From assembly GCA_006503475.1 (NCBI GenBank), contig RSEH01000203.1:24376-88375 (forward strand): 64,000 nucleotides of DNA, written 5' to 3'. The notes under the pieces are model-generated. The model was not told where the DNA came from. It did not search any database and saw nothing but the letters and a program-made list of their open reading frames with translations. The position numbers and the translations under genes were made by a program. Of this stretch, positions 34,882 through 59,195 are shown one piece after another; position 1 is the stretch's first letter; each line of letters begins with the position of its first letter. Source of the stretch: Stentor roeselii. Lineage: Eukaryota; Ciliophora; Heterotrichea; Heterotrichida; Stentoridae.

Positions 34882-36051
34882 ATGTCCTCAGCAGCTTATA
34901 TCGGGGAAAAGTTAAATGGTTTCCCACATGGTCTCGGAGTTTACATCTCAAGTGACGGAATATTTGAAGGCACCTGGGAAAAAGGCCTAAGAGTTAATAA
35001 AGGTCTTTATAAGTTTGATGATGAACTAATCACAGTTAAATTCAAAGAAGGAAAAATATACAAGTTACTTCAAATTGAAAATCAAAAGACTAATGACCTT
35101 GTCAGCCTTAAGCAATTAAACTACCTAAAGCAAGGTGATTTTTTCCAAGAAATCCCTGGAACTGAAATCTGTTCATTTGTTGTTCATGATAAGAAAATAT
35201 TTTTTGATGGCTTATCAGTAAAAAAATTCAAGTTTTTCGAACTAACCAGCCCGAACTCTACAATTTATGGATTTTTACATGATTTCACTGGAATCAAAGA
35301 AATTAGAATAAAAGATTTCAAGTATGTTTGTAGACTATTGAACAAATTGCCTTTAGGGCCGATTAAAATATCAAAGAATAATAAATGTATTAAAGGGCAG
35401 ATAATTGGGTATAAATTCAGAGGAGAATGCAAGGTAAAGCAAGGGAATTTGAAATTAAGTATTCAAAAAACTAATTCATTTCTTACAGCTTCTTATAAAA
35501 TATCATCGAAAGAAAAAGGTATTCTGATGAGCATTGAAAAAACAAAGCAAGGTTTAATTATTACAAAAGAAATTGATCTTATAAACTTTGATTTTCTTTA
35601 TAATTTTTTTATTGATTCTCTTGAATTTTACAATGAGTCTATTATTGAAATAATGAAATTTTCAAAAGGAAAATGGTTTATCATGAATTCATTGATGGCA
35701 GCTAGTAACTGGTTGCAAATTGAAAAAGATATCTCTATTGAAGCTTTAGAAAAGGAGCAAATCATAAATAATGAAAAAAGTATCAAGTTAAGAGAAATTG
35801 AAACTATTGATAATAAATCGAAAAAAATTAAGAGAATAAGGTATGCTGATGGGAGTTTTTATTATGGAGAAGTTAAAAATGATATAAGGGATGGTCTTGG
35901 GTGCTTTGTTTTTCCAAATGGTTCTCGATATAAGGGGTATTTTCGAAATAGTTTGTTCTGTGGAAAAGGATACTTCGATTCTATCTCCTGTAAGATCAGT
36001 GGATATTGGGAAAATAATACAATTAAAACAGCTGCTTTGAAAATTAATTAG
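34882..36051 (+). CDS. MORN-array protein A
   Basis: This is a 389-aa protein. N-terminal MORN-like repeats lie at about 5-50 (YIGEKLNGFPHGLGVYI, FEGTWEKGLRVNKG). C-terminal MORN repeats lie at about 318-380 (RIRYADGSFYYGEV, DGLGCFVFPNGSRYKGYF, ISGYWENN). The central 230 aa have no known domain but carry family landmarks: KFKEGKIYKLL, NYLKQGDFFQEIPG, KEIRIKDFKY, LPLGPIKI, and a W motif (SLMAASNWLQIEKDI). MORN repeats in alveolates bind membranes or lipids and act at cortical structures. Closest in the array is copy D. ATG context is TATAAAAATG. Confidence 0.88.
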   Translation: MSSAAYIGEKLNGFPHGLGVYISSDGIFEGTWEKGLRVNKGLYKFDDELITVKFKEGKIYKLLQIENQKTNDLVSLKQLNYLKQGDFFQEIPGTEICSFVVHDKKIFFDGLSVKKFKFFELTSPNSTIYGFLHDFTGIKEIRIKDFKYVCRLLNKLPLGPIKISKNNKCIKGQIIGYKFRGECKVKQGNLKLSIQKTNSFLTASYKISSKEKGILMSIEKTKQGLIITKEIDLINFDFLYNFFIDSLEFYNESIIEIMKFSKGKWFIMNSLMAASNWLQIEKDISIEALEKEQIINNEKSIKLREIETIDNKSKKIKRIRYADGSFYYGEVKNDIRDGLGCFVFPNGSRYKGYFRNSLFCGKGYFDSISCKISGYWENNTIKTAALKIN

Positions 36052-36369
36052 TTTTAGGTTAAATATAATAAGTGTTTAATTTTTTCTACAAAGGGTTTAG
36101 TGAATTAGTTTTACTTTATTATATAAAATAAATTTCTGCAGCAAAATAAAATTATCTATCTTAATACTTTTATATTGAATAATTAACCTGCTAAAAAATA
36201 CTTAAATACTGAAAGTAAATCGTTTTTAATTTATTATTTGATTGTTGATACTGATTTTGTTATATCTAGAAACTTAATGGGCTACAAGAAAAGGGATAAA
36301 AAAGTTATGATTGTAAGAAAATAAACAAAATTTATAAGGAAAAATATTAAAAACATCAAATTGAGGAAG
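36052..36369. other. AT-rich spacer
   Basis: Spacer after copy A. A piece near 36275 (AACTTAATGGGCTACAAGAA) could be a remnant of the N-terminal LNGY MORN motif belonging to the relic that follows, but it is too short to be sure. Confidence 0.45.
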
Positions 36370-36590
36370 AATTGTTCAGAGATTAAGAAAGATTAGGTAT
36401 AATTATAGAAGTTTTTATTATAGTCAAGTTAGAGATTGTACTTGGTACGAATTAGACAGTTTTATAGTTTAAAATGGTTTCAGATATAAGGGATAATAAA
36501 GAACTGATAATTTTTAGAAAATGATACTTGTAAACTTAAAATTAAAGGAATATGGGACAATATTAATATAAAAACCCAAATTATCTCCAT
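36370..36590 (+). pseudogene. MORN-array relic, C-terminal MORN end
   Basis: The DNA aligns by eye with the last 200 bp of copy A. It has GGTATAATTATAGAAGTTTT (compare RYADGSFYY), TTTCAGATATAAGGG (SRYKG), ATACTTGTAAACTTAAAATT and GGAATATGGGACAATATT (G-I/Y-W-E-N-N). Multiple stops and indels break every frame. Only the 3' end of a family member survives clearly. Confidence 0.75.
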
Positions 36591-36755
36591 ATATAGATAA
36601 ATAATATAGCTGCCTATATTAATGCTGAATAGGAAAATATGAAACTATAAATAAAAAAATCTTAAAATTAAACAATCATAAGATAACTACACCTCATCTC
36701 TTTTCCAAATATTCAAAATAATTATAAAATAATAAATCACCAATCTTCCTTAAAT
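36591..36755. other. Spacer
   Basis: Short AT-rich spacer between the plus-strand relic and the convergent copy B; nothing else was seen. Confidence 0.5.
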
Positions 36756-37943
36756 CTAACTTTCTAAATTCACATAATGAACAACAGCCTCAAGCCTATT
36801 ATTTTTCCAAATTCCTTTAACCTTAAACCCATTCCCAAAAAAATTCCCCACTCCAAAAATCTCATCATCTCTAAAATACCCCTGAAATTTTGACTTATCA
36901 TAAAAAACCAAGTACCCAAATCCATTTTTCATTCCTCTAGAAATTTCTCCATAATAAAAACTTCCGTCATCATATTTAATCCTAAAAACTTTTCTTTCTT
37001 GCACAACATCAACTTCTGAATACTTTTGATTTTCATTTTTTGTTAATTGTTTATAAATTATCTGATGATTCAAAATCATTTTTTCTATTTCATTCCAACA
37101 AGTTTTAGGAATAACAGAGTTGAATAAGGTTTTATTGAAAAAGGATTTTTTATAAATCTCTTCTTTGAACATAATAAGCATTTCAAATGCAGAAATACAG
37201 AACTTTAGCATTGTTTGAGATATATCGATATCTTTCGCATCAATTGGAATAATAAAAACGTTTTCTTCACAGAAGCCATTATAATCCACTCCAAATTCAT
37301 TTGACTGAAGCTTGAAAGTTTTCGGGTATATTGAAAAATTTGCATCGTAAAACATTTTCAGACTTCCCTGGACTATTTTACAAGGCCCTTGAAACAAGCA
37401 CCCGATAAAAAACCCTTTAAAATAAATCTTTCCTGGTAAAATCAGTTTTGACTGACCAAAAGCGAAAAAGTTCCTGAAATTCGAATAAAGACTGAAATAT
37501 TTGCAACTTAATTCTTGGATTTTCAATGATTTTTCAAAGCTTTCGAAAAATTCAAGGTTTTCTAGCTTTAAAATAAGTAAATTGTTAGATGGAGTTGGGT
37601 GCCCATCGAATAAGAAATAATTGCCGATTGAATGAAAATAACAGAAAGATTTGCTTGGAATTTCTTTAAAAACATCTCCTTGTTGAGTATAATTTATTTG
37701 TGGGAGGGAATATTGAAGTATTTTTGATGGCTTCAGGTTTGTTTCGAGGATTTTATAAATTTTACCGAGTTTGAATTTGACTTTGATGATGAAACTTTTG
37801 GACTCGAAGGTTCCTGTCTTGATTCTAAGACCTTTTTCGAAGAGACCTGTGAAAACTAGATTTGGAGTGATTATAGTTCCGTGACCATGAGGTATTCCAT
37901 TAAGAAGTTCACCAACCTACAAACTAGGAATTAAATATTGCAT
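36756..37943 (-). pseudogene. MORN-array member B, in-frame TAG at codon 9
   Basis: From ATG at 37943 the frame runs to TAA at 36756 with a single internal stop, TAG at 37917-37919 (codon 9). The stop directly precedes VGELLNGIPHGHG, which is where all relatives have their first MORN repeat. Everything after it is intact for about 386 codons: FTGLFEKGLRIKTG, KLGKIYKILE, the central region with CWNEIEKM, and C-terminal RIKYDDGSFYYGEI and KGIWKNNRL. There is no 15-16-nt intron that removes the stop. Either a recent null copy, read-through, or an unrecognised start. Closest to C, F and G. Confidence 0.75.
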
Positions 37944-38383: not shown

Positions 38384-39559
38384 TTATCCTAAGCATTTAT
38401 AATCTAAATAATTAATAACAGTCTGAAGCCTATTATTCTCCCAAACCCCTGTAATTTTATACTTAGAACAAAAAAATTTTCCTAGTCCACAAATTTTATC
38501 ATTCCTAAAATACCCTTGATATTTCGACTTATCATAAAAAACAATACATCCAATCCCATTTTTCATTCCTTGATAAACCTCTCCATAATAAAAACTTCCA
38601 TCATCATATCTAATCCTAGCTACTTTTTTAATCCCTTCTTTCAAATCTTCAATTTTTGTAAAAGTTTTTTCATATTTTTTCGAAGAATTTATAATCTTCC
38701 GCATTAAGTTGTTTTCCAAATCTATCCAATTAACCTTAGGAATAATTGAATGATAAATCCATGGATTGAAAATAGATAATCTTAAAATTTTATCAATGAA
38801 ATCAAAATAACTGTTAAAAGCTTCGATAATAAGTTTTAAAATAATAGAAATAAATTGTCTATTGTTTTCATCAATATTCAAAAAAAAAAAATCATCCTGT
38901 GTGTATCCATTTGACTGAAATCCCAGTTCTTTTGAATTAACTTTAAAATTTTTTGGATATCTCGAAGTAGTCCCTTCAAAAAGTATCTCGATGCTGCCAT
39001 GGACCACTTTGCATGGGCCTATAAACAAGCATCCAACAAGAGAGCCTTTGAAGTAAATATTGTCACAAATATGCAGTTTTGAAGGACCGAGAGGGAAAAA
39101 GTTGCAGAATTTTGAAGTTAATCGAAATTGATTAAATTGAAGTTCTTTTATTTTAATGGATTTGTCGAGACTTTCGAAGAATATCGCGTCGGGTATTCTT
39201 GTGATAAGAAATTCTTTATTTGATGATGGAAGTCCTTCAAATAAGAAAATATTGTTGAGTAATAAAAAGTAACATAATGTTTCAGAATGAACTTCTTGGA
39301 AATAGTCTCCTTGTTTAGAGTAGTTTATTTGAGGTAGTGTTAAAATAGTTATTTCATTTGATTTTAGGTTGGAAGTCAGGATTTTGTAAATTTTTCCTGA
39401 TTTGAATTTGATTGTTGATGTAAAATCTGATGATTCGAAAGTTCCTGTCTTAATTCTTAATCCTTTTTCCCAGACTCCTGAGAATAATAAGGAGTCTTTC
39501 ACAAGGGTTCCATTTCCATGAGGAAATCCGTTTAGTAGACCACCTGAATAATGCATCAT
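38384..39559 (-). CDS. MORN-array protein C
   Basis: This is a 391-aa protein starting MMHYSGGLLNGFPHGNG. N-terminal MORN pair: LNGFPHGNGTLV and FSGVWEKGLRIKTGTFE. Central landmarks: KFKSGKIYKIL, QINYSKQGDYFQEV, IKELQFNQFRLTSK, FPLGPSKLHI, YFKGSLVGCLFIGPCKVVHG, and the W motif IIPKVNWIDLENNL. C-terminal MORNs: RIRYDDGSFYYGEVYQGMKN, SKYQGYFRNDKICGLGKF, TGVWENNRLQ. It belongs to the minus-strand subfamily B/C/F/G, recognised by the GPCK(V/I)xxG element, where Cys-Lys sits after Gly-Pro. No intron or break. Confidence 0.88.
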   Translation of the reverse strand: MMHYSGGLLNGFPHGNGTLVKDSLLFSGVWEKGLRIKTGTFESSDFTSTIKFKSGKIYKILTSNLKSNEITILTLPQINYSKQGDYFQEVHSETLCYFLLLNNIFLFEGLPSSNKEFLITRIPDAIFFESLDKSIKIKELQFNQFRLTSKFCNFFPLGPSKLHICDNIYFKGSLVGCLFIGPCKVVHGSIEILFEGTTSRYPKNFKVNSKELGFQSNGYTQDDFFFLNIDENNRQFISIILKLIIEAFNSYFDFIDKILRLSIFNPWIYHSIIPKVNWIDLENNLMRKIINSSKKYEKTFTKIEDLKEGIKKVARIRYDDGSFYYGEVYQGMKNGIGCIVFYDKSKYQGYFRNDKICGLGKFFCSKYKITGVWENNRLQTVINYLDYKCLG

Positions 39560-40522: not shown

Positions 40523-41722
40523 ATGTCAGCTAATTATTTTGGCGAGAAGGAAAATGGCTACTTTCACGGTCCTGGAGTCCTTATCGAGCACAACAGAGTG
40601 TTTGAAGGTATATGGGAAAAAGGTCTTAGAGTGCAAAAAGGCACATTTAAATACGATGATAAAGTTTTAAATGTCAAATTTAAAAAGGGAAAAATTTACA
40701 AGTTAATCAGTTTTCAAAGCAAAACTGATGAGAAACTCTTGGTTCTTAAACAAATTAATTACATTCAAGAAGGAGATTATTATCTGGAAGTCCCTGGGAA
40801 TGATGTTTGCTCATTTTGGGTGATTGAGAATATAGTGGTATTTGATGGGTTTCCTTTAAAGGATTTGGAAGTTGGGATTTCTAGGGGGTCAAACTTTAGT
40901 ATTTATCAGTTATTGAATTATAATACTACAGTTAAAGAAGTAAGAATGAACAAAATTAGGTTTATTTCCAGATTTTTAAACAATTTGCCTCTGGGAACTT
41001 TCAAGGCTATTAAAGACAGCAAGTTTTCTATAAAGGGGTTCGTTATCGGGTATAATTTCGTTGGTGAATTACAAATTAAAAGAGATAATTTAAAGCTTAT
41101 AGCTCAAGAAACCCAATCATCATTCCCAAATAAGTTCAAATTGATATCAAAAGAAGACGGCTTAATTTTTACTTTAGAAACTGAAGATGAGGGTGTTAAA
41201 ATTATAAAACAAAAAAATCGCTTTTCAAATGATGATTCTTTTTTTCATCGTTGTTTTGTTGAATGTCTTGAGTTCTACAGTGAAGTCTTTAATTGCCTCT
41301 TAAAGTTTTCATCAAAAAATAAGTTTATGATGAATTCAATAAAATTATCAACTAATTTGCTTGATTTCGAAAAAACTATATTACTCGAAGAAAACATAAA
41401 AAGAAAGAAATTAGAGAATAGAAGAAATAAATTAATCGAAGGGAATAAGAAAGATGCAAATAAAATTGATGAGAATGAAAATATTTTGAAAACAGTTAAA
41501 AGGATTAAATATCCAGATGGGACTATTTATTATGGAGAAATGAAAAATGATCTTAGAGATGGACTTGGATGTTTGGTTTTTTCTAATGGTTCGAGATATA
41601 AAGGGTATTTTAAGGGTGGTCTTTTTTGTGGAAAAGGATACTTTGAAAATAACTCTTTCAAGATCAGTGGAATTTGGGAAAACAATAGAATAAAAAGGTC
41701 AATAGTTCTAAGGGTTTTTTAG
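40523..41722 (+). CDS. MORN-array protein D
   Basis: This 399-aa protein is the sister of copy A. N-terminal: YFGEKENGYFHGPGVLI, FEGIWEKGLRVQKGTF. Central: KFKKGKIYKLI, INYIQEGDYYLEVPG, VKEVRMNKIRFISRFL, LPLGTFKAI. The usual W motif is changed: SIKLSTNLLDFEKTI has Leu where most copies have Trp. A Lys-rich linker (about 295-325) precedes the C-terminal MORNs KRIKYPDGTIYYGEM, DGLGCLVFSNGSRYKGYF, SGIWENNRIK. ATG context TATAAATG. Confidence 0.88.
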   Translation: MSANYFGEKENGYFHGPGVLIEHNRVFEGIWEKGLRVQKGTFKYDDKVLNVKFKKGKIYKLISFQSKTDEKLLVLKQINYIQEGDYYLEVPGNDVCSFWVIENIVVFDGFPLKDLEVGISRGSNFSIYQLLNYNTTVKEVRMNKIRFISRFLNNLPLGTFKAIKDSKFSIKGFVIGYNFVGELQIKRDNLKLIAQETQSSFPNKFKLISKEDGLIFTLETEDEGVKIIKQKNRFSNDDSFFHRCFVECLEFYSEVFNCLLKFSSKNKFMMNSIKLSTNLLDFEKTILLEENIKRKKLENRRNKLIEGNKKDANKIDENENILKTVKRIKYPDGTIYYGEMKNDLRDGLGCLVFSNGSRYKGYFKGGLFCGKGYFENNSFKISGIWENNRIKRSIVLRVF

Positions 41723-42489: not shown

Positions 42490-43710
42490 ATGCAAAGATC
42501 TGGTTACTACGGTTCATATCTCAATGGTTATCGTCATGGAAAAGGGTCATTTATTCAACAAGATGTGGAATTTCAAGGGTTTTGGGATAAAGGCCTAAGA
42601 GTTAACCAAGGAATATACAAAACTTCCTTATTTACTTTAAGATGCAGGTTTAGGAATGGAAGAATTTATAAAATTCTAGAATTTTTGACAGATGTTAGTG
42701 ATAAGAAAACTATCAGTACTAGTCTCATGCAGCCAGCTTATTTACAAGAAAGTGAATATTACAGAGAGATTCCAAGTAGTGAAAAATGCTTTTTTACTAT
42801 AGAAGACAAAAGATTTCTCTTTGATGGATTCCCAGCAAAATCTAAACAATTTCTCTATCGAGAGTTAGATGGCTGTGAACTTTTAGGAATTTCTGATGAC
42901 AGAATAAGCATCCATGAACTAAGACTAAAAAATTACCTTTATATCGGCAGATTAGTTCATTTTGTCCCAATTGGACCTGCCAAAATTATCATAAAAGACA
43001 ACTTTTACATAAAAGGTGTAATAAGAGGTTACTTTTTCACTGGAAAATGTAAAATAGTAAAAGAAAATTCAAAAATTCTTATTAATTTAGATAACATGCT
43101 CAATCTCTCAAGTCTTGAATTAAGTTTAAAAACCCAAGACTCTGAAATGGAACTTGAGTCAAAAGAAAGACTTTCACTCACATCACTTAAAAAAATATCA
43201 AACATTAACACCTATAACAAAAAAATGATAATTACTGATGAAGTCTTTAATAAATGCATAGATTTCATCTTTCAAATTGAAAAATTGTGTAAAAAACACT
43301 CAAGTATTGCATATTCTGTAATGATTAAGACAAATTGGTTGGATTTAGAGAATGAAATATTTAAATATATTAAAGATAAAAGATTATTTATGAAAAAAAT
43401 TAATTCAGATGAAAAATTTTTGAATAATTTTGAAGGTTTAGGAAATTATGATTATGAGAAAGTTGAAAGAGATAAGAAAAGGATGATTAGGAAAAGATTT
43501 GATAGAAAAAGTTTTTTTTATGGAGAGGTTAAGGATGGCCTGAGACATGGACTTGGGTCGTTTGTTTTTTCTGATGGAAGCAGGTTTAAAGGTTATTTTG
43601 AAAATGGTAATATTTGTGGAATTGGATATTTTGAAAATAGTGAATACAGAATCAAAGGGTTATGGAAAGACAATAGAATTTTAAAAGTGATGTCTTTTGT
43701 TTTAGTTTAG
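42490..43710 (+). CDS. MORN-array protein E
   Basis: This is a 406-aa protein starting MQRSGYYGSYLNGYRHGKG. N-terminal MORNs: LNGYRHGKGSFI, FQGFWDKGLRVNQGIY. Central: FRNGRIYKILEF, AYLQESEYYREIPSSEKCFF, FLFDGFPAKSK, IHELRLKNYLYIGRLV, VPIGPAKI, and W motif SVMIKTNWLDLENEI. The C-terminal MORNs lack the usual Asp-Gly in the first unit (KRFDRKSFFYGEVKDGLRHG) but keep GSRFKGYFENGNICGIGYFE and KGLWKDNRI. By the ExxxEKCFF...FDGFPxKS element it groups with H and L. Confidence 0.88.
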   Translation: MQRSGYYGSYLNGYRHGKGSFIQQDVEFQGFWDKGLRVNQGIYKTSLFTLRCRFRNGRIYKILEFLTDVSDKKTISTSLMQPAYLQESEYYREIPSSEKCFFTIEDKRFLFDGFPAKSKQFLYRELDGCELLGISDDRISIHELRLKNYLYIGRLVHFVPIGPAKIIIKDNFYIKGVIRGYFFTGKCKIVKENSKILINLDNMLNLSSLELSLKTQDSEMELESKERLSLTSLKKISNINTYNKKMIITDEVFNKCIDFIFQIEKLCKKHSSIAYSVMIKTNWLDLENEIFKYIKDKRLFMKKINSDEKFLNNFEGLGNYDYEKVERDKKRMIRKRFDRKSFFYGEVKDGLRHGLGSFVFSDGSRFKGYFENGNICGIGYFENSEYRIKGLWKDNRILKVMSFVLV

Positions 43711-44039: not shown

Positions 44040-44885
44040 AATTCAGAACTATCATTAATATTTAAGAGAATCTGTAAGAAATGCTTTTTCTAATTCATTG
44101 AGAAAAGAATTTTATTTGATGAGCTTTCAGTGAGAAAAGAATTTTATTTGATGAGCTTTCAGTGAGAAGGTCCTAATGAAAAAATTTGAATATTTCATAT
44201 TCATTATATAATTCTAATCAACAATTTATAATGTTTTAATACATAAACTATAAGCTTTATTTCAAATTATAACTTTCCTTCAAGATGGATTATGCAAAGG
44301 GCTACCAGGATGCTCAAATTATGCTCAAAAAGCAGTTAAATTGTAAAAGAGATTATGGAACTAATAATCATTGTAGAACAGTATTTAAATCTCACTGATT
44401 TGATGTATATACAAAAATAACAGGTAAATAAATTAAATGCTTGGAGCCAAGGTAAGAAATTGATATTCAAGGCAGTCTAAATGTTGAAGATAAATAATTG
44501 GGAACTTTATTGAAGAAGATTATAATTATTACATTAATTTTCTATTGCAATCCATAGATTTTGCAAAAAATATTGAAATAATTGTTATTCTTTGATAATT
44601 GCCATCGATTAGAACAGAAACTTGTTAGTAAATTAAGGAAAGAGAGTCCTTGGAAAATAATAGATTACCATCAAAAGCTACTCAGAAAAAGAAGAATATA
44701 AGATATAGAAAGTTTTTATTATGGAAATACGAGAGGACTTGGATATTTTCTATTTGCTAATTGAGATAGATTTATAGGAAATTTTAAACAGGATGGTTTT
44801 GGAGGTTAGGATCATTTGAAACTAATGAATATTTATAAAATGATATGGAAAAACAATAGACTCATTAATATTTTTACTGTTATTT
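44040..44885 (+). pseudogene. MORN-array relic, E/H/L type, with 32-bp duplication
   Basis: At 44060-44130 the DNA matches the copy-E segment for SEKCFFTIEDKRFLFDGFP (TGTAAGAAATGCTTTTTCTA, then AAAAGAATTTTATTTGATGA). A 32-bp piece is duplicated there. At 44690-44870 the C-terminal MORN end is readable through frameshifts: AAGATATAGAAAGTTTTTAT (RY-R-K-S-FYY), GGACTTGGATATTTTCTATT, GGAAATTTTAAACAGGATGG, ATATGGAAAAACAATAGACT (WKNNR). The middle is badly eroded. No frame could produce a protein. Confidence 0.7.
44099..44162. repeat. 32-bp perfect tandem duplication
   Basis: A unit starting TGAGAAAAGAATTTTATTTG and ending GAGCTTTCAG occurs at 44099-44130 and again at 44131-44162, followed by a partial third copy. 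It lies inside the MORN relic over the former KRFLFDGFP codons. Confidence 0.9.
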
Positions 44886-45042
44886 ATTTATAATAGGATA
44901 AAGAATCATAAATGCAATTATATAACATCATAAATATATCTAGACATAGCAATTATAATTTTAAGTTTATAAAGCTTATCAATTAGTACAAAAAGATATG
45001 GTTTAACTAGGACAATAAAGATCATAATTAAAAATATCTAAA

Positions 45043-46230
45043 TTATCTATACTCATAATAAAAGACAACTTTCTGCAGTCGATTTTGACTCCAAATTCCT
45101 TTAAACTTATACTCAAGTCCATAAAAACATCCAACTCCACATATTAGATCATCTTGAAAATATCCCTGAAACTTCGAATTATCATGAAATACCAAAACTC
45201 CAAGTCCATGTTTCAATCCATTTCTAACTTCTCCATAATAAAAGCATCCATTATCATATTGAATTCTCTGAACTTTCCTAAAAACCACTTGATCCTCATT
45301 AGAAGTTATTTCAAATTTATACCCTTTACCAAAGTCCTTACTTTTTTGAATATCCTTAAAATAAAAAAAGAACTTTTCTTCAAAGTCAAGCCAATATTTC
45401 TTATCAAGAACCGAGTAAGAAATTGAGAAATTATAAAAAGGCTGATAAAGAAACTCACTTACAAATTCATCATATATTTCAAATGCCTCATAAACAAATT
45501 TTGATATGATTGAAAAGAATTCATTCAAGTTTTTTTCTTTTTCAAAGTAAAAGTGATCATTTTTATAGCACCCCTTAAATTTAATATTTAACTCATTCGA
45601 TTTTACTGTAAAATTTTCTGGATATATTAATTGAGACCCTTCAAAATGAACTTCTAAAATTCCTTGAGAAATTTTACATGGGCCTAGAAAAAAACATCCA
45701 CAAAAGAACCCTTTCACGTAAAAGTTATTCTCAAGACATAATTTCGCAGGACCATGAGTAATGAAGTTTAAAGCTTTGCTGATTAATCTGAATGATTTAA
45801 ATCTCAATTCTTTTATTTGATATGATTTTACACGAATATAAAAAATGCTAGCATTTTCAAATCGATTGTTTTTCAGTTGATTATAGGGAAGGAATAAACC
45901 GTCAAATAAAAAGAGACCGTCTATGATAAAAAGAAAACAAAAGGTGTTGCTGATGATTTCTTTGAAAAAATCACCGTCTTTTATGTAGTTTATTTGAGGT
46001 AATTTTATGATTTTTCTGGATGGAGGGTGAGTTATTTCAAGGAGTTTATATATCTTTCCTTGCTTGAATTTTACTTTTAATGTGAAATCGAAGCAATCGA
46101 ATTTCCCTGTTTTTATTCTTAGACCTTTTTCCCAGGTACCCGTGAATATCGAGAAGTTTGTTACAAGAGTGCCTTGCCCGTGAGGGATTTCATTTAGTTT
46201 TTCCCCTTCATAATGGATTGAGTTATTCAT
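45043..46230 (-). CDS. MORN-array protein F
   Basis: This is a 395-aa protein starting MNNSIHYEGEKLNEIPHGQG. N-terminal MORNs: EIPHGQGTLV, FTGTWEKGLRIKTGKF. Central: KFKQGKIYKLLE, QINYIKDGDFFKEI, IKELRFKSFRLISKAL, HGPAKLCLENNFYVKGFFCG, GPCKISQG, W motif SVLDKKYWLDFEEKF. C-terminal MORNs: RIQYDNGCFYYGEV, HGLGVLVFHDNSKFQGYFQD, KGIWSQNRLQ. It is arranged head-to-tail with its nearest relative G, 218 bp apart, suggesting a recent tandem duplication. Confidence 0.88.
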   Translation of the reverse strand: MNNSIHYEGEKLNEIPHGQGTLVTNFSIFTGTWEKGLRIKTGKFDCFDFTLKVKFKQGKIYKLLEITHPPSRKIIKLPQINYIKDGDFFKEIISNTFCFLFIIDGLFLFDGLFLPYNQLKNNRFENASIFYIRVKSYQIKELRFKSFRLISKALNFITHGPAKLCLENNFYVKGFFCGCFFLGPCKISQGILEVHFEGSQLIYPENFTVKSNELNIKFKGCYKNDHFYFEKEKNLNEFFSIISKFVYEAFEIYDEFVSEFLYQPFYNFSISYSVLDKKYWLDFEEKFFFYFKDIQKSKDFGKGYKFEITSNEDQVVFRKVQRIQYDNGCFYYGEVRNGLKHGLGVLVFHDNSKFQGYFQDDLICGVGCFYGLEYKFKGIWSQNRLQKVVFYYEYR

Positions 46231-47627: not shown

Positions 47628-47809
47628 TTATTTATATTCAAGTTATTTCTTAGATCAAACTTCAATCAGATGATATAAAAAATACATTGAGTTTAAATAT
47701 AATAAAACTACTAAATCTTTTTCAATCCTAAACTCAACTAAACATCAAACCATGAAATTATTAAACTTTTTTACTAACCTCATAATAATTAAATATTCTA
47801 AAAAGAAGA

Positions 47810-48912
47810 TTATCACTCGAGCATCCTTTTATTTTGTACTGAAGCCCTTATTAGTTACCAATTCTGGAAATCTAATATTTTTAAAATACTTTCAAATTTC
47901 GACAAATCTTTAAAACAAGCATCCAAATCCGTTCTTCATTCCTTGAAAAATTTTTCCTAAATAAAACTTCAATCATCGTATTGAATCCTTACAATTTAGC
48001 AATTTTTTTCAGATCTTAAAGTTTTTGTGAAAATTCCTATCATCTCTTTCTTTCACTAACTTTATTCCTAAAAATTGTCTAATGATACGATTTTCTAATC
48101 CAATCCAAGACTTTTTGGAAACCTAGAGTTGAAAAATCACTAAATCACAAATAAGAGAAACTAAAATAAGCATTCTTCATTAAAATACCTCTAAAGGGCT
48201 TCATAGATAAATTCTGAAATCACTGAAAAGTAAGGTTTTCAACTATAATTAACTTGAACATAAAAAAAACGATTTTGGTAGCAGCCTTTAGCTTCAAATT
48301 TCAAATCTTCTGATTTTTTTTAAATTTTAAGGGAATTGAAAGAGATGTGTAAAAAAGTATTGAAAGACTACTCTTGACTATTTTTCATGGTTTTTAAAAA
48401 TGACAAAAAGAAACCCTTTCATGGAAATATTTTGTTTTAGGTGCAACTTGGAAGTCCGAGCGCGAATTAATTTATAATTTGATGACAAGACTGAAATTTT
48501 ATCTCTGATTTCTTTGATTTATCAATTTTATGATAAAGGTTCACCGTACTTATTTAAAGAATTATTTAATAACAGGCATAAATATTCAATCAAAGTTATT
48601 AAAGTCTTGGAAAGTTATGATATATAAGAGATTATTTTATTGTCTTTGTTATGTTTCCTATTTTCACTTATTTATCTGAGGGAGATGAATGATGAGTAAG
48701 CTTTCGAATTAAATGTTGTTTCAACCAATTTGTAAATTTATAATTGTTTTAATTTAAGTTTTAAGACAAACTAGAAACAATCAAAGGTTTCTGTTTTGAT
48801 TCTAAAGCATTTGCTATATTTCCCTGAGGATATTTAGATTTTGAAATTAGAAATCTGTTGAGGTGAAGGACTTAATTAAACTTTCACCTTCATATTGAAA
48901 ATATAAGTTCAT
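47810..48912 (-). pseudogene. MORN-array relic, B/C/F/G type, nearly full length
   Basis: On the minus strand an ATG at 48912 gives MNLYFQYEGESLIK, matching the starts of F and G, but stops follow. Further pieces appear in order across about 1.1 kb: the middle MORN/central segments with shifts, then RIQYDD-stop-SFI (compare RIRYDDGSFYY) at about 47985-47960, and a remnant of the SKFQGYF region near 47920. Many stops and frameshifts make it non-functional. Confidence 0.72.
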
Positions 48913-49278: not shown

Positions 49279-50505
49279 ATGAATGCAACTAAATACATCG
49301 GTTCTGAATTGCATGGATACCCTCATGGCGAAGGGGTAATCATAGAAGACGATCTGATAATAGAAGGAACATGGGAAAAAGGCAAAAGAATAAATTACGG
49401 AGCATATAAATATAAGGACATGACAATTAAATGCAAGTACAAGAATGGGAAAATTTTCAAGTTTCTTGAATTCCGGATGGCTCAAGATATAAACGTATGT
49501 GGGGAGATATGCTTCCCAGATGTAAAATACATTCAAGAAGGAGAGTTTTACAGAGAAATCGAAGGTGATACACGCTTAGTTGTATTTCTAAATGACAAAA
49601 GATTTTTATTTGATGGAATTCCTGTGAAATCTAGAAATCTTAAGACTTGGAATGTGAATGGAATAGAAATTTTTGCAATATCAGATGATAAAGTTGGTAT
49701 AAGAGAATTGGAAAAGTTGGATTTTAGAATTGTTGGAAGGATTATTAAATTAATACCTTTCGGACCTGTGAAGATTATTAGAAATGAAAATTTTTACATT
49801 AAAGGATTGATTAGAGGGTATTGTTTTGTTGGAGAGGTTAAAATTATTCAAAATAATAAAAGAATATTTATTAACGGAAACGAAGGACTTAAGCCTATGA
49901 ATATTAAAATTGTTTTAAAAGATAAAAATATTGAAATTAAGATGAATTATCAAGAACGAATACTTTCTTTCACTGATCAAAATAGTCAAAGATATTCTGA
50001 AAAAAATAGAGAACTTATTGTTAATTCATTAGCTGAATCTCTATCTTTTTACTCAATAATGATAATGGAGATTGATATTCTTTGCAAAAAAAACTCAAGC
50101 ATTGCAAATTCTTTGATGGTCACCAGTAGTTGGCTCGATCTTGAAAGAATGATATTGAAAATTTCAAGAGATATGAAAGATGTTTTTCATTTAAAAGATA
50201 ATTTTCACAATAGAAGAACAAACTTTAAAGGGAAAGAAGATGATTTGGATAAACGTGAAAGATATGAAAATCATGTGGTTAGGGAAAAATATGTGGATGG
50301 GTCTTTTTATTATGGGGAAATTTATAATGGATTAAGGCATGGGCTTGGATGCTTCATTTTTTCAAATGGAGATAAATATAGAGGATACTTTAAAATGAAT
50401 AGGTTTTGTGGTCAGGGGTCTCTTCAAACTTCTTGTTTTATAATTAAAGGAATGTGGGAAAACTGTAAACTGACAAAAATTTATTGTTTTAGTTATTTAG
50501 ATTGA
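49279..50505 (+). CDS. MORN-array protein H
   Basis: This is a 408-aa protein starting MNATKYIGSELHGYPHGEG. N-terminal MORNs: HGYPHGEGVII, IEGTWEKGKRINYGAYK. Central: YKNGKIFKFLEFRM, KYIQEGEFYREIEG, RFLFDGIPVKSRN, IRELEKLDFRIVGRII, IPFGPVKII, GYCFVGEVKIIQNNKRIFI, W motif SLMVTSSWLDLERMI. C-terminal MORNs: EKYVDGSFYYGEIYNGLRHG, NGDKYRGYFKMNRFCGQG, KGMWENCKL. It is very close to copy L; both keep the INGNEG(L/I)KP element in the central region. Confidence 0.88.
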   Translation: MNATKYIGSELHGYPHGEGVIIEDDLIIEGTWEKGKRINYGAYKYKDMTIKCKYKNGKIFKFLEFRMAQDINVCGEICFPDVKYIQEGEFYREIEGDTRLVVFLNDKRFLFDGIPVKSRNLKTWNVNGIEIFAISDDKVGIRELEKLDFRIVGRIIKLIPFGPVKIIRNENFYIKGLIRGYCFVGEVKIIQNNKRIFINGNEGLKPMNIKIVLKDKNIEIKMNYQERILSFTDQNSQRYSEKNRELIVNSLAESLSFYSIMIMEIDILCKKNSSIANSLMVTSSWLDLERMILKISRDMKDVFHLKDNFHNRRTNFKGKEDDLDKRERYENHVVREKYVDGSFYYGEIYNGLRHGLGCFIFSNGDKYRGYFKMNRFCGQGSLQTSCFIIKGMWENCKLTKIYCFSYLD

Positions 50506-51667: not shown

Positions 51668-52815
51668 ATGAATTTAGATCTATGGATTTACTCTGGTGAG
51701 GAATTAGAAGGCTACCCTCATGGCAATGGCATTCAAATATACGCAAACGGCTCTACCTATACAGGGACCTGGGAAAAAGGTTTAAAAGTTGGAATCGGAG
51801 TTATTGAAGTTGATGGAAAAGTGATGAAAACTAAGATGAAATCAGGAGTCAACTATAAACTTCTAGAAATCAAAACATCTTCTCCTAAATATAAAACAAT
51901 GGTATTCAAGCAGCCTAGATATTCAAAGAATGGTGAATTTTACCAAGAGCTTTCCGATTATTCAATTGTTTATGTTCACTTCTTCAAAAGTACCCCATTA
52001 TTCGGAGGCAATTTAACAATTTCTAATTATTTTGAAATAATTGAATCAGAAGATTTTTTATTATTCATCAACCAGGAAGAGTTTTTCAGAAATTGTGAAA
52101 TTCAAACAAAAGATTTCAAATTCATTGGAAATGTGATCCAAATGCAAACTGTCGGTAAAGGAAAGTTTGTCTTAGATGAGCAGTTTTATGTTAAGGGGGT
52201 CTCTCGGGCAGGGTATCTTCACGGTCAATGTAAAATAACTAAAGGAGATTTTTCATTACTTTTTGAACCTGATGAGTTTTTAGAAAATTAGAAAATTTTA
52301 TTATTTGTTTGTCTTTAACAATAAAAAAAAACTATTCAGTTTTTGCTTCGGTCAATGTTGACTCTAAATGGGATGATTTTGAAAAAAGATTTAAAAAAAA
52401 ATCATTTTTATATCAGAAGATTAGAGAAAAAAACTTAGAAAATCGCCGAAGGTCTTATGAAAATAATGAGATTGAAGAAAGAGAAGAACTTAAACTAATC
52501 GATCATAAATTTAAAGATATTGAAAGTAGTTTCGAATATTTAAGAAACAAAAGCGGGCTTCATCAGATTAATGAGGAAAATACTCTTCAAAAGATTTGGT
52601 ATGGCAAAGATAAAGGATGGTATTTAGGAGAATCAACAAATTCTCTTAGAAATGGACTTGGAATATTTAGGTTTCCCAATGGAAGTCGCTTTACAGGGTA
52701 TTTTAATAATGGGAAAATGAATGGAAAAGGAAGGTATCAATGTGATGATTTCAGCATAGTTGGCTATTGGAGAAACAATAAATTAGATAAGGTTTACAGA
52801 TTGATATTGAAATAA
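51668..52815 (+). pseudogene. MORN-array member I, broken by internal deletion
   Basis: The first 207 codons (MNLDLWIYSGEELEGYPHGNG to EPDEFLEN-TAG at 52291) align closely with copy K. Homology resumes in another frame at about 52303 and continues to 52815 (SLTIKKNYSVFASVNVDSKW, C-terminal LRNGLGIFRFPNGSRFTGYF, VGYWRNNKLDKVYR). Compared with K about 145 nt are missing at the join, which is not a multiple of three and creates the shift. No ATG opens the second part and no 15-16-nt intron fits. Two truncated peptides are possible, but a broken gene is likelier. Confidence 0.8.
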
Positions 52816-53394: not shown

Positions 53395-54570
53395 CTAAAA
53401 AAACGAAATCGATTTAATTTTTACTGCTTTACCATCAACCCATTCTCCCCTTACCCTGAAACTTCGACTAATAAAAAACCCTTTTCCACAAATTTTATCA
53501 TTCCTGAAGTATCCATGATATCTTGACCCATCACTAAAACTAAAACAACCAAGTCCATGTTTTTTCCCATTCTTGACCTCTCCGAAATAAAAGCCATTCT
53601 TATAAACAACTCTTTTAACGCATTCATTATTTTTCTGGTCCTCGGCATGTCCAATATCAGAAAAATTTCCGATATGAAAATCAATTTTTTTATCATCATT
53701 ATTTTCAATCCTGTTATTTTTTGCAATATTTTTTTCATAACTGCCCCAATCATCTTCAACATTCAAAGAATCAGCTAAAGCACGATTTACTAAAGGTGAA
53801 TTTTTTAAACGATATGAAAAATTGTAAAAGAAATCAAAACATTCAAACACAAATGGCTTGATTATATCTTCATAAGGCCCGCAAGGCTCATAGATAACTT
53901 TCCTGTTGTTAAAATCAAGTTTTGCCTCAATGTTGATTCCAAAAGCCTTTGAAATAATTCTAAAAGTTTTAAAAAAATCTTTAAAAATCATTTTCATACC
54001 ATTTTTCACTATTTTACTTGTTCCGATTATATGGTGCCCTCGAAGAGTGGATTTAAAATACAACTGATCTTTAAAGATTCGAGAACAACCGACTGGAGTA
54101 GTGTTTATAAGATGTCCAACTAATCGGTATTCAAAAATCCGGATTTCCTTAATACCGAAGTTTTGGTTTTTAATTCTAAAGATTTCAAGAATTGAGATTT
54201 TTTGTGAATCGATTTGATGTGAGTCTCTTACAAGTCCATGAAATAGTAATTTATTTTCTGAAATGAAGATGAAACTAAAACAATTTGAAGGAATTTCTTT
54301 GAAATAGTTTCCTTCTTTTATGTAGTTAGGCTGGTCTAACTTGTGGATAAATCGAGAACGGGAAGGACCTTTATTGATAAATTCTAGGACTCTGTATATT
54401 TTTCCTTTTTTGTACTTGATGACCAGCTTTAGATCATTTACCTCTAAAGTGCCTTTTCCAGTTCTCAAACCTTTTTCCCAGGTTCCTGTGAAAGTCGTTG
54501 AATCTGTTGACATGAGAATTCCTTGACCGTGAGGATAGTAATTTTGAGTTTCTCCTGAATAAATAAACAT
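53395..54570 (-). CDS. MORN-array protein J (divergent member)
   Basis: This is a 391-aa protein starting MFIYSGETQNYYPHGQG. N-terminal MORNs: YYPHGQGILM, FTGTWEKGLRTGKGTLE. Central: YKKGKIYRVLEF, PNYIKEGNYFKEIPS, IKEIRIFEYRLVGHLI, TPVGCSRIFKDQLYFKSTLR, W motif SLNVEDDWGSYEKNI. C-terminal MORNs start with a shortened unit (KRVVYKNGFYFGEVKNGKKH), then SDGSRYHGYFRNDKICGKGF and RGEWVDG. It has no close sister in the window and stands apart from the other minus-strand copies. Confidence 0.87.
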   Translation of the reverse strand: MFIYSGETQNYYPHGQGILMSTDSTTFTGTWEKGLRTGKGTLEVNDLKLVIKYKKGKIYRVLEFINKGPSRSRFIHKLDQPNYIKEGNYFKEIPSNCFSFIFISENKLLFHGLVRDSHQIDSQKISILEIFRIKNQNFGIKEIRIFEYRLVGHLINTTPVGCSRIFKDQLYFKSTLRGHHIIGTSKIVKNGMKMIFKDFFKTFRIISKAFGINIEAKLDFNNRKVIYEPCGPYEDIIKPFVFECFDFFYNFSYRLKNSPLVNRALADSLNVEDDWGSYEKNIAKNNRIENNDDKKIDFHIGNFSDIGHAEDQKNNECVKRVVYKNGFYFGEVKNGKKHGLGCFSFSDGSRYHGYFRNDKICGKGFFISRSFRVRGEWVDGKAVKIKSISFF

Positions 54571-54705
54571 TTAATTTATTTGGCATTTAAAAGGTGAATT
54601 TTTCTGTAATTTCTATTGATTTATAAAGATTCGATAAATTTACCTTATGAAGAAATGAGAATATTGATGAATTGAACAGAGATATTTTTAACCTTTTAGA
54701 ATTTG

Positions 54706-54846
54706 GAAATTTTCTTCTCAAGATATGAAAAATAACGAATCAAACAATAATAAATTCCATAAATTTAAACTAATTAGAAATTTTCTTGTAATGATATGAA
54801 AATAACGAATCAAACAATAATAAATTCGATAAATTTAAACTACTCA
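54706..54846. repeat. 71-bp tandem duplication upstream of copy K
   Basis: Two near-identical units, 54706-54776 and 54777-54846, each contain AATAACGAATCAAACAATAA and TAAATTTAAACTA. They lie in the 285-bp region between the divergent starts of J and K, so they duplicate possible promoter sequence. The second unit reaches to just before the ATG of K. Confidence 0.9.
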
Positions 54847-54855
54847 TATTTTAAG

Positions 54856-56205
54856 ATGATAGACTTAGATTTATGGATTTATTCTGGAGAGGAACTAGAA
54901 GGCTACCCTCATGGCCATGGAATTCAAATCTACGCAAACCAGTCAACTTTTACAGGGACTTGGCATAAAGGTTTAAAAGTTGGAACAGGAATTCATGAAG
55001 TTGAAGGAACCACGATAAAAGCAAAGTTTAGATCAGGAATTAACTACAAATTTTTAGAAGTCAAATCAAATACTCTTCGCTACGATCAAATCGGATTTAA
55101 GCAACCTCGGTATTCAAAACACGGTGAATTTTATCAAGAACTTCCTGAGCACTCCCTAGTAACTCTACACATCTTTAAAAGCACTCCTTTATTCGGAGGC
55201 CGTCCTTCAAAAAACGATTATATCATCAAAAAAAAAGGAAAAAACTATTCATTGTTCATCGATCAGGAAAAGACTTTTCGGATTTGTGAACTTCAAGCGG
55301 CTCATTACAGATTTATAGGAAATGTCATTCAACTTCTACCTGTTGGAAAAGGAAAGTTTTTTCTTAATGATAATTTTACTTTGAAAGGTGTTACAAGGGC
55401 TGGGTATTTAAATGGTCAGTGCAAAATAACTAAAAATGATTTATCGATTTTATTTGATGCTGAAGATTTTCTGAAAAGTGAAAGTTTTACAGTGATTTTT
55501 AAAAAAAGTACCGTGAGTGAAAAGGTGAGAATTAGAGAAGGTGTTTTAGTTTTAGAAAAAAATTCTCAGGTTAAAAAAAATTCTGAAATATTTGAGTTAA
55601 TCATTAAAGCTTGTGAGAGACTAAAATGTTTTATTATAGAACTTTCTTTAAGAGTAAAAGAAAATTATGCTATTTTCGCATCTGTTAATTTACAGTCGAA
55701 TTGGGGACTATTTGAAAAAAACATGCAAAAAACAAAAGCTTTTTATAAGAAATTTCAAGAAGAATATCGAGAAAAGTCTGAAAAAAGTGAAGAATCTGAA
55801 GAAAATGAGGAGTTTGAAGATAGTTTTCTGGAAAATTCTGAAAAAAGTGAAGAATCTGAAGAAAATGAGGAGTTTGAAGATAGTTATTCAGAGATTTCAG
55901 ATGAGGAAAGAAATTTTATTAAACAAAATTTTCTATTTGATGAAAGGGTTGGGAATAATTTCATACAATTGATGAGGTATGATAATTGTCGAGAATTGTA
56001 TGTAGGAGAAATCAGAAATGGGGTAAGACATGGACTTGGAATCTTAAAATTTTCGAATGGTGGGGTTTTTAAAGGGTACTTCGAAAATGGAAAAATTCAT
56101 GGAAAAGGAAGGTATCAGTGTGGGGATTACAACTTTGTAGGATATTGGAAGAACAATCATTTATATAAAGTTTACAGATTAGTGATAGAGACTAGATTTA
56201 ATTAA
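54856..56205 (+). CDS. MORN-array protein K, with acidic repeat insert
   Basis: This is a 449-aa protein from ATG 54856 (MIDLDLWIYSGEELEGYPHG), matching the start of copy I. An upstream in-frame ATG at 54796 would add 20 residues encoded by the duplicated leader and is less likely. N-terminal MORNs: EGYPHGHGIQI, FTGTWHKGLKVGTG. Central: FRSGINYKFLEVK, PRYSKHGEFYQELP, LFGGRPSKND, CKITKNDLSILFD, W motif SVNLQSNWGLFEKNM. An insert at about 305-345 holds two 20-aa acidic repeats before the C-terminal MORNs (HGLGILKFSNGGVFKGYF, VGYWKNNHLYKVYR). It is the longest family member. Confidence 0.87.
   Translation: MIDLDLWIYSGEELEGYPHGHGIQIYANQSTFTGTWHKGLKVGTGIHEVEGTTIKAKFRSGINYKFLEVKSNTLRYDQIGFKQPRYSKHGEFYQELPEHSLVTLHIFKSTPLFGGRPSKNDYIIKKKGKNYSLFIDQEKTFRICELQAAHYRFIGNVIQLLPVGKGKFFLNDNFTLKGVTRAGYLNGQCKITKNDLSILFDAEDFLKSESFTVIFKKSTVSEKVRIREGVLVLEKNSQVKKNSEIFELIIKACERLKCFIIELSLRVKENYAIFASVNLQSNWGLFEKNMQKTKAFYKKFQEEYREKSEKSEESEENEEFEDSFLENSEKSEESEENEEFEDSYSEISDEERNFIKQNFLFDERVGNNFIQLMRYDNCRELYVGEIRNGVRHGLGILKFSNGGVFKGYFENGKIHGKGRYQCGDYNFVGYWKNNHLYKVYRLVIETRFN
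55777..55896 (+). repeat. In-frame 60-nt tandem duplication in copy K
   Basis: Units 55777-55836 and 55837-55896 are identical over the first 48 nt. Each encodes the acidic SEKSEESEENEEFEDS, then FLEN in the first and YSEI in the second. The duplication is in frame and absent from all other family members. Confidence 0.92.
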
Positions 56206-56293
56206 TGCTTTGAGTGGTTATACAGTTAATAGTAATTCAAGCCAAATATCTAAAAAACCCTATTGAAGATAATTGAATTCTTTCCATATAAAT

Positions 56294-57517
56294 ATGAGTC
56301 TGAATAATTACATTGGCCCAGAGCTCAATGGTTACCCAAACGGTGAAGGAATCATAATAAAAAATGATTCTGAAATAGAAGGATTTTGGGAAAAAGGCAA
56401 AAGAGTAAAACAAGGTCTTTTCAAATCTGATAGCATGGAAATAAAATGCAAATACAAAAATGGAAAAATTTACAAATTTTTTGACCTTCGAATGAAATTC
56501 GATCATGATCAAGACCTTCAATTCCAATTCAATCAACCGAAGTATATCCAAGAAGGAGAATTTTATAGAGAAGTGAAAAGTGATGAGAAATGCTTTATTT
56601 TAATCAAAAGAAATAAATGTATGTTTGATGGATTTCCTGTGAAATCAAATAAAATCAAGGTCTCGAATATAAATCAATCATTAAAAATTTACGAAGTAAT
56701 TGATGATAAAACCTCAATCCGAGAACTTCAAAATGAAATGTTTACATATGTAGGAAGACTTTTTTCATTAATTCCTTTCGGTCCAGGTAAAATTATTAGA
56801 AAAGAGAGAAATTACATTAAAGGATTTTTGAGAGGATATATTTTCGTGGATGAAGTTAAGATAGTGAAAGATAATATAAGAATATTCATAAACGGAAACG
56901 AAGGAATTAAACCTTCAAATATAAGAGTTCTTTTAAAAGATCGAAATATTGAAGTAAAACTATTGATTCAAGGAAATTTTTTTACTTTTGCTGATCGAAA
57001 TAGCCAAATAAAAGCGATAGAAAATAAAGATCTTATAAAAGGTTCATTAGCAGAATCAATTATTTTTTATTTAAGAGTGATTAGAATGATTTATATTTAT
57101 TGTAAACATAACCTTAACATTGCAAACTCTTTAATTGTTACAAAAAGTTGGTTAGAACTTGAAAAATTCATTGAAAAAAGATTGAAAGATGAGAAAAATA
57201 TTTTTAAATTTGATGATTTTGAACAGTCTAATGTTTCAAGTAATAAAGAGAATTTTCAAGAGAAATTTGATAAAAATGATTGTCAGTTTGTAAGGGAAAG
57301 ATATTGTGATGGAAGTTTTTATTATGGGGAATTTAGTCATGGAGTAAGACATGGCCTTGGTTGTTTTGTTTTTGCTAATGGCGATAAATATCAAGGATAC
57401 TTTAAAATGAATAATTTTTCTGGTCAGGGAATGTTTCAAACTTCTGAATATAAACTTAAAGGTGTATGGGAAAACAATAAATTAATTAGGGTTTCGAGTT
57501 ATTTAATTATAACGTAG
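56294..57517 (+). CDS. MORN-array protein L
   Basis: This is a 407-aa protein from ATG 56294 (MSLNNYIGPELNGYPNGEG), with context ATATAAATATG. N-terminal MORNs: NGYPNGEGIII, IEGFWEKGKRVKQGLF. Central: YKNGKIYKFFDLRM, KYIQEGEFYREVKSDEKCF, CMFDGFPVKSNK, IRELQNEMFTYVGRLF, IPFGPGKII, RIFINGNEGIKP, W motif SLIVTKSWLELEKFI. C-terminal MORNs: ERYCDGSFYYGEFSHGVRHG, NGDKYQGYFKMNNFSGQG, KGVWENNKL. Its sister is H, 7 kb upstream; both are followed by an I/K-type copy on the same strand. Confidence 0.88.
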   Translation: MSLNNYIGPELNGYPNGEGIIIKNDSEIEGFWEKGKRVKQGLFKSDSMEIKCKYKNGKIYKFFDLRMKFDHDQDLQFQFNQPKYIQEGEFYREVKSDEKCFILIKRNKCMFDGFPVKSNKIKVSNINQSLKIYEVIDDKTSIRELQNEMFTYVGRLFSLIPFGPGKIIRKERNYIKGFLRGYIFVDEVKIVKDNIRIFINGNEGIKPSNIRVLLKDRNIEVKLLIQGNFFTFADRNSQIKAIENKDLIKGSLAESIIFYLRVIRMIYIYCKHNLNIANSLIVTKSWLELEKFIEKRLKDEKNIFKFDDFEQSNVSSNKENFQEKFDKNDCQFVRERYCDGSFYYGEFSHGVRHGLGCFVFANGDKYQGYFKMNNFSGQGMFQTSEYKLKGVWENNKLIRVSSYLIIT

Positions 57518-57938
57518 AAGTAGTTAATCATGGGATAGTTAATCAGATTTGAGGATAGGTTTGAACAACTACTTCGTAAAAATAATATTTTTCAATAATC
57601 AACTCTTAGATTAAAGTAGCTAATGTTATGAATATCTCTCTTCACAAATAATCATAAAATAATAAAATCAATATTAGCATCTATAATCTTTAGAGTTTAG
57701 ATTACTTGAACACCTAGTTATACTTTAAACATAAGTAAAGTGAAAATAAAAATCAGTAAATCTTAATAATTTAAGCCATGAAGACTACAACATCAGGAAT
57801 ATTTCTTGATTCTTTATTTTTATATATTAATTAACAGAAAAGATTCAATAAATAAGCCAAAATCAAAACTACTTTTAATTTCAATCTAAACAAATTACTC
57901 AAAATTTCTATTGCAGCTAATTTAGTTTATAAATAATT
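57518..57938. other. AT-rich spacer
   Basis: 421 bp between copy L and the following relic; nothing recognised. Confidence 0.6.
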
Positions 57939-59195
57939 AACTTTGAGTTATGGGAATATTCTGGAGAAATGTTTATCCTCACGGTGAAGGAATGAAATAT
58001 TTGAAAATCTAGAAACTTTTATAGGATTTGGGATAAAGGCTTAAAAGTGAAAACAGGAACATTTGAGATTAAAGGATTTATCATCTAATTAAAATTCAGG
58101 AAAGGAAAAATATACAGATTTCTCGAAGTAGGCTCACAATCTCTCAACTACATCAAATTAAAATTCAAACAACCTGATTATATTCAAAGAGGTGATTTTT
58201 TGGAAGAATGCACTGAAGGTTCAAGTATTTAACTGCATTCATATCAAAACATTCCTTTATTAATGAGTACCCGTTAGAATCAAAGGAATTATTAATATCA
58301 ACTAATCAAAATTTCAACTTATTCACTGCAAAAGAAAATAAATTGAAAATATCTGAAATTCATAGAAGATATTTTATATTTATTGGAAATTTGATTCAGA
58401 ATAATCCGGTTGGCTGAGGAAAATTTCTTTTATTTGAAGATTTCTAGTTAACAGGTGTCGCGCGATCAGGATATATGAATGGAATTTGCAAATCAAGAAA
58501 AGGGGACTCTTGCTTATTTTGATTCAGATAAATTTATGAAGAGTCTTAGATTTAGGGTGGATTCAAAAAAGCTGGCAACAGATAACGAAATTTATTACTT
58601 TGGAGATGTATATGAAAAAAGGTATGGGGTTAGCAATGATTATTTCTCTCTTAAGAGATGTCAAATTTTTCAACAATTACTCATGAGGTTTTAAACTTCA
58701 TCCATGCGGCCCACAATAAATCCTTAAATTTTCTTATAAATTTTTCAAGAATGCTTAACGAAAACTATAGCATTACTTGTTACTTTAATGTTGAATTAAA
58801 TTGGATAAACTTTGAAGTTAAAATGTTAGAAAAATCTAAAGTTTAGGAATACTTTGGAAATATTCAATCTAAAAATAAACAAAAAACTAAGCCGATCATG
58901 AGCAAAAATGTTAAAGATAACCTCAAACTTAGAAAAAATGAACAAGTAAATGAATTTAATCAAAAGATTAGTGCTCTGAATTTGGTTAAAATTTATATTG
59001 TGATAAAGAGGTCTTCCTCGGTGAAATTTCTAGAAATTTGAAGAATGGACTTGAAATTATTAAGTTCAAGACCGGAGTACTTTTAAAGGGTACTTTCGTG
59101 ATAATCAGCTTCATGGCGAGGAAGACTTGAATGTGAAAATTTTACATTGATTCGAAAATGGGCTGGAAATAAACTTGTGAATGTTCATCATATAA
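57939..59195 (+). pseudogene. MORN-array relic, I/K type, nearly full length
   Basis: The start region reads ELWEYSGE, then shifts, and continues WDKGLKVKTGTFEIKG, LKFRKGKIYRFLEV, KFKQPDYIQRGDFLEE, all matching K in order. Later parts include a frame at 58479-58694 with KGTLAYFDSDKFMKS (compare DLSILFDAEDFLKS) and one at 58658-58846 with ENYSITCYFNVELNWINFEV (compare ENYAIFASVNLQSNWGLFE). The C-terminal MORN end is readable near 58998-59180. At least six stops or shifts interrupt it. Confidence 0.8.

Follow-up and report, generated by a model that had tools for sequence, protein, structure and literature searches.

The window analysed here, 64,000 nucleotides (nt) of Stentor roeselii, comprises bases 24376-88375 of one contig (C120, 88,375 bases in total) in an assembly of 44.4 Mb and 522 contigs. 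Between 34.88 and 59.20 kb of this window lie 16 loci of a single gene family with MORN repeats, carried on both strands: 10 open genes (A, C to H and J to L), two nearly complete but broken copies (B and I) and four relics (r1 to r4). An earlier note, made from the letters alone, had described a dense tandem array of this composition, in which intact, lightly broken and eroded copies stand together with no unrelated gene between them, and our analysis confirms that this observation is right and well described. All 16 loci were recovered by tblastn of 13 frames against the window combined with a profile search that reads stops as X. Among stop-to-stop open reading frames (ORFs) of at least 120 amino acids (aa) at 34-60 kb, the sole non-family one inside the array runs antisense over L and has 120 aa. 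The kinship of the copies is far above chance (H versus L, tblastn E 2e-131).

The ten intact genes are ATG-started open frames of 389-449 aa and are grouped here by the clades of the tree described below. Gene A (34882..36051, + strand, 389 aa), with a MORN-hinge-MORN order of parts, and gene D (40523..41722, +, 399 aa) form the AD clade, while E (42490..43710, +, 406 aa), H (49279..50505, +, 408 aa) and L (56294..57517, +, 407 aa) make up the EHL clade. The FG clade holds F (45043..46230, -, 395 aa) and G (46449..47627, -, 392 aa), the latter being the protein used for the AlphaFold model. C (38384..39559, -, 391 aa) belongs with broken B to the BC clade, and K (54856..56205, +, 449 aa), whose hinge loop contains an acidic repeat, belongs with broken I to the IK clade. 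J (53395..54570, -, 391 aa) is a lone deep branch.

Gene B (36756..37943, -) keeps 386 codons open (37916-36756, -); its in-frame ATG at 37943 is followed eight codons later by an in-frame TAG, and the gene is probably dead only recently. Gene I (51668..52815, +), the sister of K, is broken by an internal deletion and a frameshift: it is split over two frames and, compared with K, lacks about 45 residues at the junction, as judged by eye. Short introns were considered as a rescue of both copies and rejected, since no length tried opens the frame. For B, no GT..AG intron of 13-39 nt in the first 120 nt yields an ATG-started open frame; for I, none of 14-18, 20, 24 or 25 nt restores one.

The relics range from fragments to nearly full-length copies. 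Two retain the C-terminal MORN part: r1 (36368..36576, +, 9.3 bits), the weakest, which is ambiguously AD- or EHL-like, and r2 (44654..44890, +, 21.1 bits), which holds that part only and is EHL-like. The BCFG-like r3 (47913..48854, -, 14.0 bits) spans most of the length with many stops, and the IK-like r4 (57933..59197, +, 71.1 bits) retains almost the whole length, interrupted by many stops and frameshifts. In the profile search all four score above a control of 20 second-order Markov sequences derived from 9.9 kb of intergenic DNA, whose maximum was 3.3 bits. For r1, the profile match begins inside A in another frame, and the independent tblastn match covers only about 36368-36576.

Two related MORN families in the genome

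Searches of the assembly with five protein queries agree on 17 substantial loci of the family, with 12 in the array, two on contig C14 and one each on C59, C162 and C312; genome counts of repeats and large families are lower bounds. The other matches of these queries are either relics or short segments belonging to different MORN genes or to a sister family. Frames of about 390-450 aa are open at 14 of the 17 loci, 10 of them in the array. One of the C14 copies (C14b, at 11.7-12.8 kb) carries one TAA, which none of 38 GT..AG introns of 13-30 nt anywhere in the frame removes so as to open it, and a short remnant sits between the two C14 copies.

On C45 the sister family occupies nine loci (45.3-82.8 kb), six of them free of stops and three interrupted by stops, and C51 and C248 carry more. 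Its stop-bearing copies are C45:74225, with one internal stop and no opening by any of 39 GT..AG introns of 13-30 nt, C45:68664, C45:47585 and C51:78998. The two families align over their full length by hhalign (E 3.5e-28, 371 columns, 19% identical). When the family protein A1 was compared with the longest ORF of 10 other MORN loci as a control, seven aligned over 61-65 columns, corresponding to the C-terminal MORN repeats, and three over 14-23 columns, the longest ORF in these three being possibly different from the MORN gene. Against three single sister proteins, A1 aligned over 352 columns in two cases and 74 in one. The sister family shares with the array family the order of parts over the whole length, an arrangement in an array and the presence of stop-bearing copies; it differs in sequence and in that genes of other families separate its copies, making the C45 array looser. 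The model of a sister protein has the same order of parts at low confidence (mean predicted local distance difference test score, pLDDT, 66.3; residues 255-354 below 50). MORN repeats as such are common in this genome (1302 candidates; 150 scored, none of these 150 on C120). The present case is that of a MORN family with its own architecture whose copies have multiplied and are being lost in clusters, on at least two contigs of the same genome, the sister family adding a third cluster.

The family loci sit 4.8-13.5 kb from the nearer contig end. A general subtelomeric location is unsupported, as telomere repeats occur at the nearer end of C59 and at none of the C14, C162 and C120 ends.

Age of the duplications and selection

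The earlier note had suggested a tree of the family, and we built one within this genome by maximum likelihood from 17 sequences, entering I as a fragment and C14b with an X at its stop. The tree resolves A with D; E, H and L; B with C; F and G with C14b; and I and K with C59 and C162, leaving J alone. Support is good for 10 of the 14 inner branches, and C312 and C14a have long branches and unsure placement. The branch of pseudogene I is longer than that of K (0.51 vs 0.22). The subclades track strand and order along the array (A-D; B-C with F-G; E-H-L; I-K-r4), a pattern suggestive of block duplication: A-r1-B-C may be an old block duplicate of D-E-F-G, and H-I of L-r4.

The closest intact pair is 52% identical in protein and K and I are 60% identical. 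Over the six closest pairs, protein identity is 47-60%, with NG86 synonymous divergence (dS) of 0.84-1.41 and nonsynonymous divergence (dN) of 0.27-0.42. Codon identity at shared residues (0.59-0.67) is in modest excess over chance (0.47-0.55), and no between-copy repeat of at least 50 nt exceeds 81% identity (seed 16). Given the high dS of the pairs, the modest codon identity and the lack of near-identical DNA, the births appear to be old, whereas the breaking of copies has gone on. The continuing birth and death of genes that the earlier note had read from the array therefore stands in its second half, intact, broken and eroded copies lying side by side, and is unsupported in its first, given dS, codon identity and the repeat search.

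Selection was assessed, as had been proposed, through dN/dS, here on paralogue pairs and on windows. Pairwise averages are 0.29-0.55 over 12 pairs, some with broken copies, and are likely overestimated because dS is near saturation. Purifying selection on average (dN/dS below 1) is what these codon comparisons show. In sliding windows of 40 codons over six pairs, the proportion of nonsynonymous differences (pN) exceeds the synonymous one (pS) in 11 of 196, at most 1.61-fold (B-C, start 281). The strongest window lies near the hinge loop in three of the six pairs (starts 281, 302 and 312). Synonymous sites are near saturation in these paralogues, and positive selection is not evident from the codons. 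At the level of sequence, the array is genuine: a tandem family of old origin, in decay and on average under purifying selection, with one related family elsewhere in the genome.

Duplications of smaller scale are also seen. A 60-nt tandem duplication (80% identical; window 55745-55864) extends the acidic hinge loop of K. Short direct repeats of 44 nt (98%) and 32 nt (97%) lie 5' of K and upstream of r2, respectively (54729-54842 and 44094-44157), and these are the youngest duplications seen in the array.

Protein architecture and known MORN proteins

The Pfam MORN cut-off (PF02493) was passed by all nine family proteins scanned (A, C to H, J and K), and an NCBIfam scan of two family proteins and one sister protein gave no match. 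The AlphaFold model of G (mean pLDDT 82.6) predicts a long MORN-like ribbon of about 10 hairpins (residues 6-229), a helical hinge (233-295), a low-confidence variable loop and, at the C-terminal end, some three MORN repeats (313-387). Over 11 aligned copies, identity is 44% at both ends, 20-34% in the ribbon between, 25% in the helices and 18% in the loop, where 40% of comparisons are gapped; many glycines are invariant. Net charge is +9 to +21 in 10 of 11 proteins and +1 in K. Judged from hydropathy and N-termini only, no signal peptide is evident in the 11 proteins. Likewise no C-terminal anchor is evident by hydropathy, the most hydrophobic 19-residue windows starting at residues 94-252; the highest value (2.04, F at residue 96) falls in a stretch modelled as beta structure in G. 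The proteins are probably rod-like and intracellular, resembling scaffolds, with both the fold and the absence of a secretory route being predictions.

By sequence profile and fold, the best solved matches are MORN1 of Toxoplasma, Trypanosoma and Plasmodium, followed by junctophilin and axonemal MORN proteins. In a Foldseek search with G, ranks 1-8 are all MORN1 (best E 1.1e-9) with low TM-scores, and single MORN blocks of G superpose on solved structures at 1.2-2.5 Å. MORN proteins are usually regarded as conserved structural parts. In junctophilins (7rxe, 7rw4, 9uo9) the MORN blocks are interrupted by a non-MORN stretch, as they are here; these proteins differ in carrying a membrane anchor at the C-terminal end. 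The axonemal proteins RSPH1, MORN2, MORN3, MORN5, FAP207 and FAP266 differ in overall architecture, and several of them give a close superposition with single MORN blocks. With MORN1 of Toxoplasma, Plasmodium and Trypanosoma (6t69, 6t6q, 6t4d, 6t4r) the family shares the extended MORN beta-ribbon. T. brucei MORN1 is described, in PMC7725318, as consisting of MORN repeats alone and as a dimerising protein-protein module, not a membrane binder. G, in contrast, does not consist of MORN repeats alone: a long degenerate ribbon and a hinge of helices predicted at 233-295 divide off its C-terminal MORN block.

Titles and abstract openings of the papers listed on MORN in Stentor, ciliates and Pandoravirus, on MORN family expansion and on heterotrich tandem duplication mention no such array, and the word MORN is absent from the text of PMC13291615. 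MORN-domain genes count among the genes up-regulated during Stentor regeneration (PMC9371601), and a table in a cell-cycle study of Pseudokeronopsis includes MORN genes with raised expression (PMC7022673). Both studies speak for a cortical or ciliary role, though the array family is named in neither.

Candidate roles and surroundings

We favour, with a probability of roughly 0.5, the reading that the array encodes paralogues of a cytosolic scaffold protein within an old, decaying tandem MORN family. The array would have been built through old single-gene and block duplications, with copies lost by mutation. Each intact gene would give rise to a cytosolic rod composed of the ribbon, the helical hinge, the variable loop and the C-terminal MORN repeats. 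Analogy with MORN proteins of solved structure suggests that the first and last MORN stretches, which are conserved, may mediate docking as well as dimerisation or oligomerisation, and that the choice of partner may lie with the hinge and the middle of the ribbon, which are variable. We infer further that the paralogues would serve, with partial redundancy, as subunits of an internal scaffold, sited most likely at the cortex, the oral apparatus or the cilia; dimerisation, location and redundancy are inferred only. If the paralogues are indeed cortical or ciliary subunits, they would make it possible to study how the cytoskeleton of a giant unicellular organism acquires diversified components. 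At present the array is mainly a well-defined gene family with a candidate role.

The broken and eroded copies in the array, on C14 and in the sister array, together with the lack of recent births and the fairly high dN/dS, speak for an alternative, redundant leftovers of a once-useful axonemal or cortical MORN family that decays under relaxed constraint and has no special role. We regard this alternative as less likely, as 14 frames of about 390-450 aa are still open genome-wide, 10 of them in the array, dN/dS averages less than 1 and invariant glycines are numerous. The analogy drawn by the earlier note to surface-antigen, defence or mating-type families fares unevenly. A tandem array that bears pseudogenes does resemble families of variable surface antigens or mating-type proteins that are expressed singly, yet no signal peptide or membrane anchor is evident by hydropathy, the duplications are old, no near-identical DNA blocks link the copies and the structures that match best belong to MORN proteins of the cell interior, all of which makes such a role very improbable. 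We give equally little credence to an assembly artefact, which the earlier note had named as a ground for refutation, or to captured viral genes. The contig does end about 4.8 kb past the array without a telomere; however, the window contains no N, the subclades are interleaved along the array and C14 and C45 carry further clusters. Giant-virus MORN proteins with predicted structures, from pandoravirus and others and with several long MORN proteins per virus, do appear among the Foldseek matches, but one scan of IMG/VR with G found no sequence relative. A viral origin was rejected on that single scan, on one weak PHROG match to the C-terminal part, on the lack of NCBIfam matches for the three proteins scanned and on giant-virus matches that are generic MORN.

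The defence part of that analogy keeps a low probability on account of the neighbouring genes. A dynamin-superfamily GTPase (59476..61539, +) lies downstream of r4, recognised by weak, sub-cut-off Pfam matches (RHD3 E 0.023) and by similarity to other such GTPases, and the C14 MORN pair adjoins a frame of 1784 aa whose GTPase domain is GBP/URGCP-like (GBP E 6.9e-10). A GTPase thus stands within 6 kb at two of five family loci (contigs) against 0.06 expected (P about 0.002), a figure that rests on about 31 hand-counted GTPase loci and on a pattern noticed post hoc. MORN rods could accordingly be imagined to act with such GTPases on the membranes of vacuoles or invaders, in intracellular defence or symbiont handling, with gene turnover reflecting an arms race. 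We consider this unlikely: besides the after-the-fact linkage, the two GTPases resemble each other only remotely (E 1.9e-5), the Pfam matches of the C120 one are below cut-off, C59, C162, C312 and C45 yielded no match when the genome was searched for such GTPases, and the windows with pN above pS give no clear sign of positive selection. The linkage is therefore suggestive and a lead only. A broader version, in which diversified rods of the two MORN-hinge-MORN families and the linked GBP/URGCP-like GTPases assemble on membranes as a heterotrich-specific intracellular recognition system, a ciliate counterpart of cell-autonomous immunity or of the control of symbionts and prey vacuoles, seems to us less probable again. 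If MORN proteins do work with GTPases, this would be an opening onto ciliate immunity.

The 1784-aa frame on C14 (L045:2595-7949) also shows cysteine-rich repeats by eye and a weak VWA match. Further matches to such GTPases are found on C140 (two), C237, C70 and C80.

As to the genomic setting, the standard genetic code is used in Stentor. TGA acts as a stop here: it terminates gene H, and 35 ORFs of at least 150 aa end in TAA (20), TAG (13) or TGA (2). A 15-nt GT..AG intron, the one clear case, lies inside a gene at 17.3-18.8 kb judged by eye to be a tubulin-tyrosine ligase, and there are three more intron candidates of 16 nt. Three copies of CCCTAACA have 547 matches in the assembly, the places listed being contig ends, and the reversed control has none. 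With its telomere repeats, short intron and TGA stop, the genome looks like a Stentor-type heterotrich macronucleus. In PMC9942806, the Blepharisma telomere repeat is given as permutations of the same unit, and UGA as a tryptophan codon in that genus.

ORFs of at least 150 aa cover 65% of the array (GC 29.5%) and 85% of 15-35 kb (GC 36%). Loose packing was considered as a peculiarity of the array and rejected, as 1-15 kb has less ORF cover (56%). Rfam at gathering thresholds and ARAGORN gave no match anywhere in the window. Most genes neighbouring the array were classified by eye only. Directly upstream of the array, at 34070-34278, a 70-nt unit occurs three times in tandem. Far from it, at 1061-3102 (-), two adjoining 323-codon frames, perhaps a tandem pair, appear by eye to encode hydrophobic membrane proteins of the multi-pass type.
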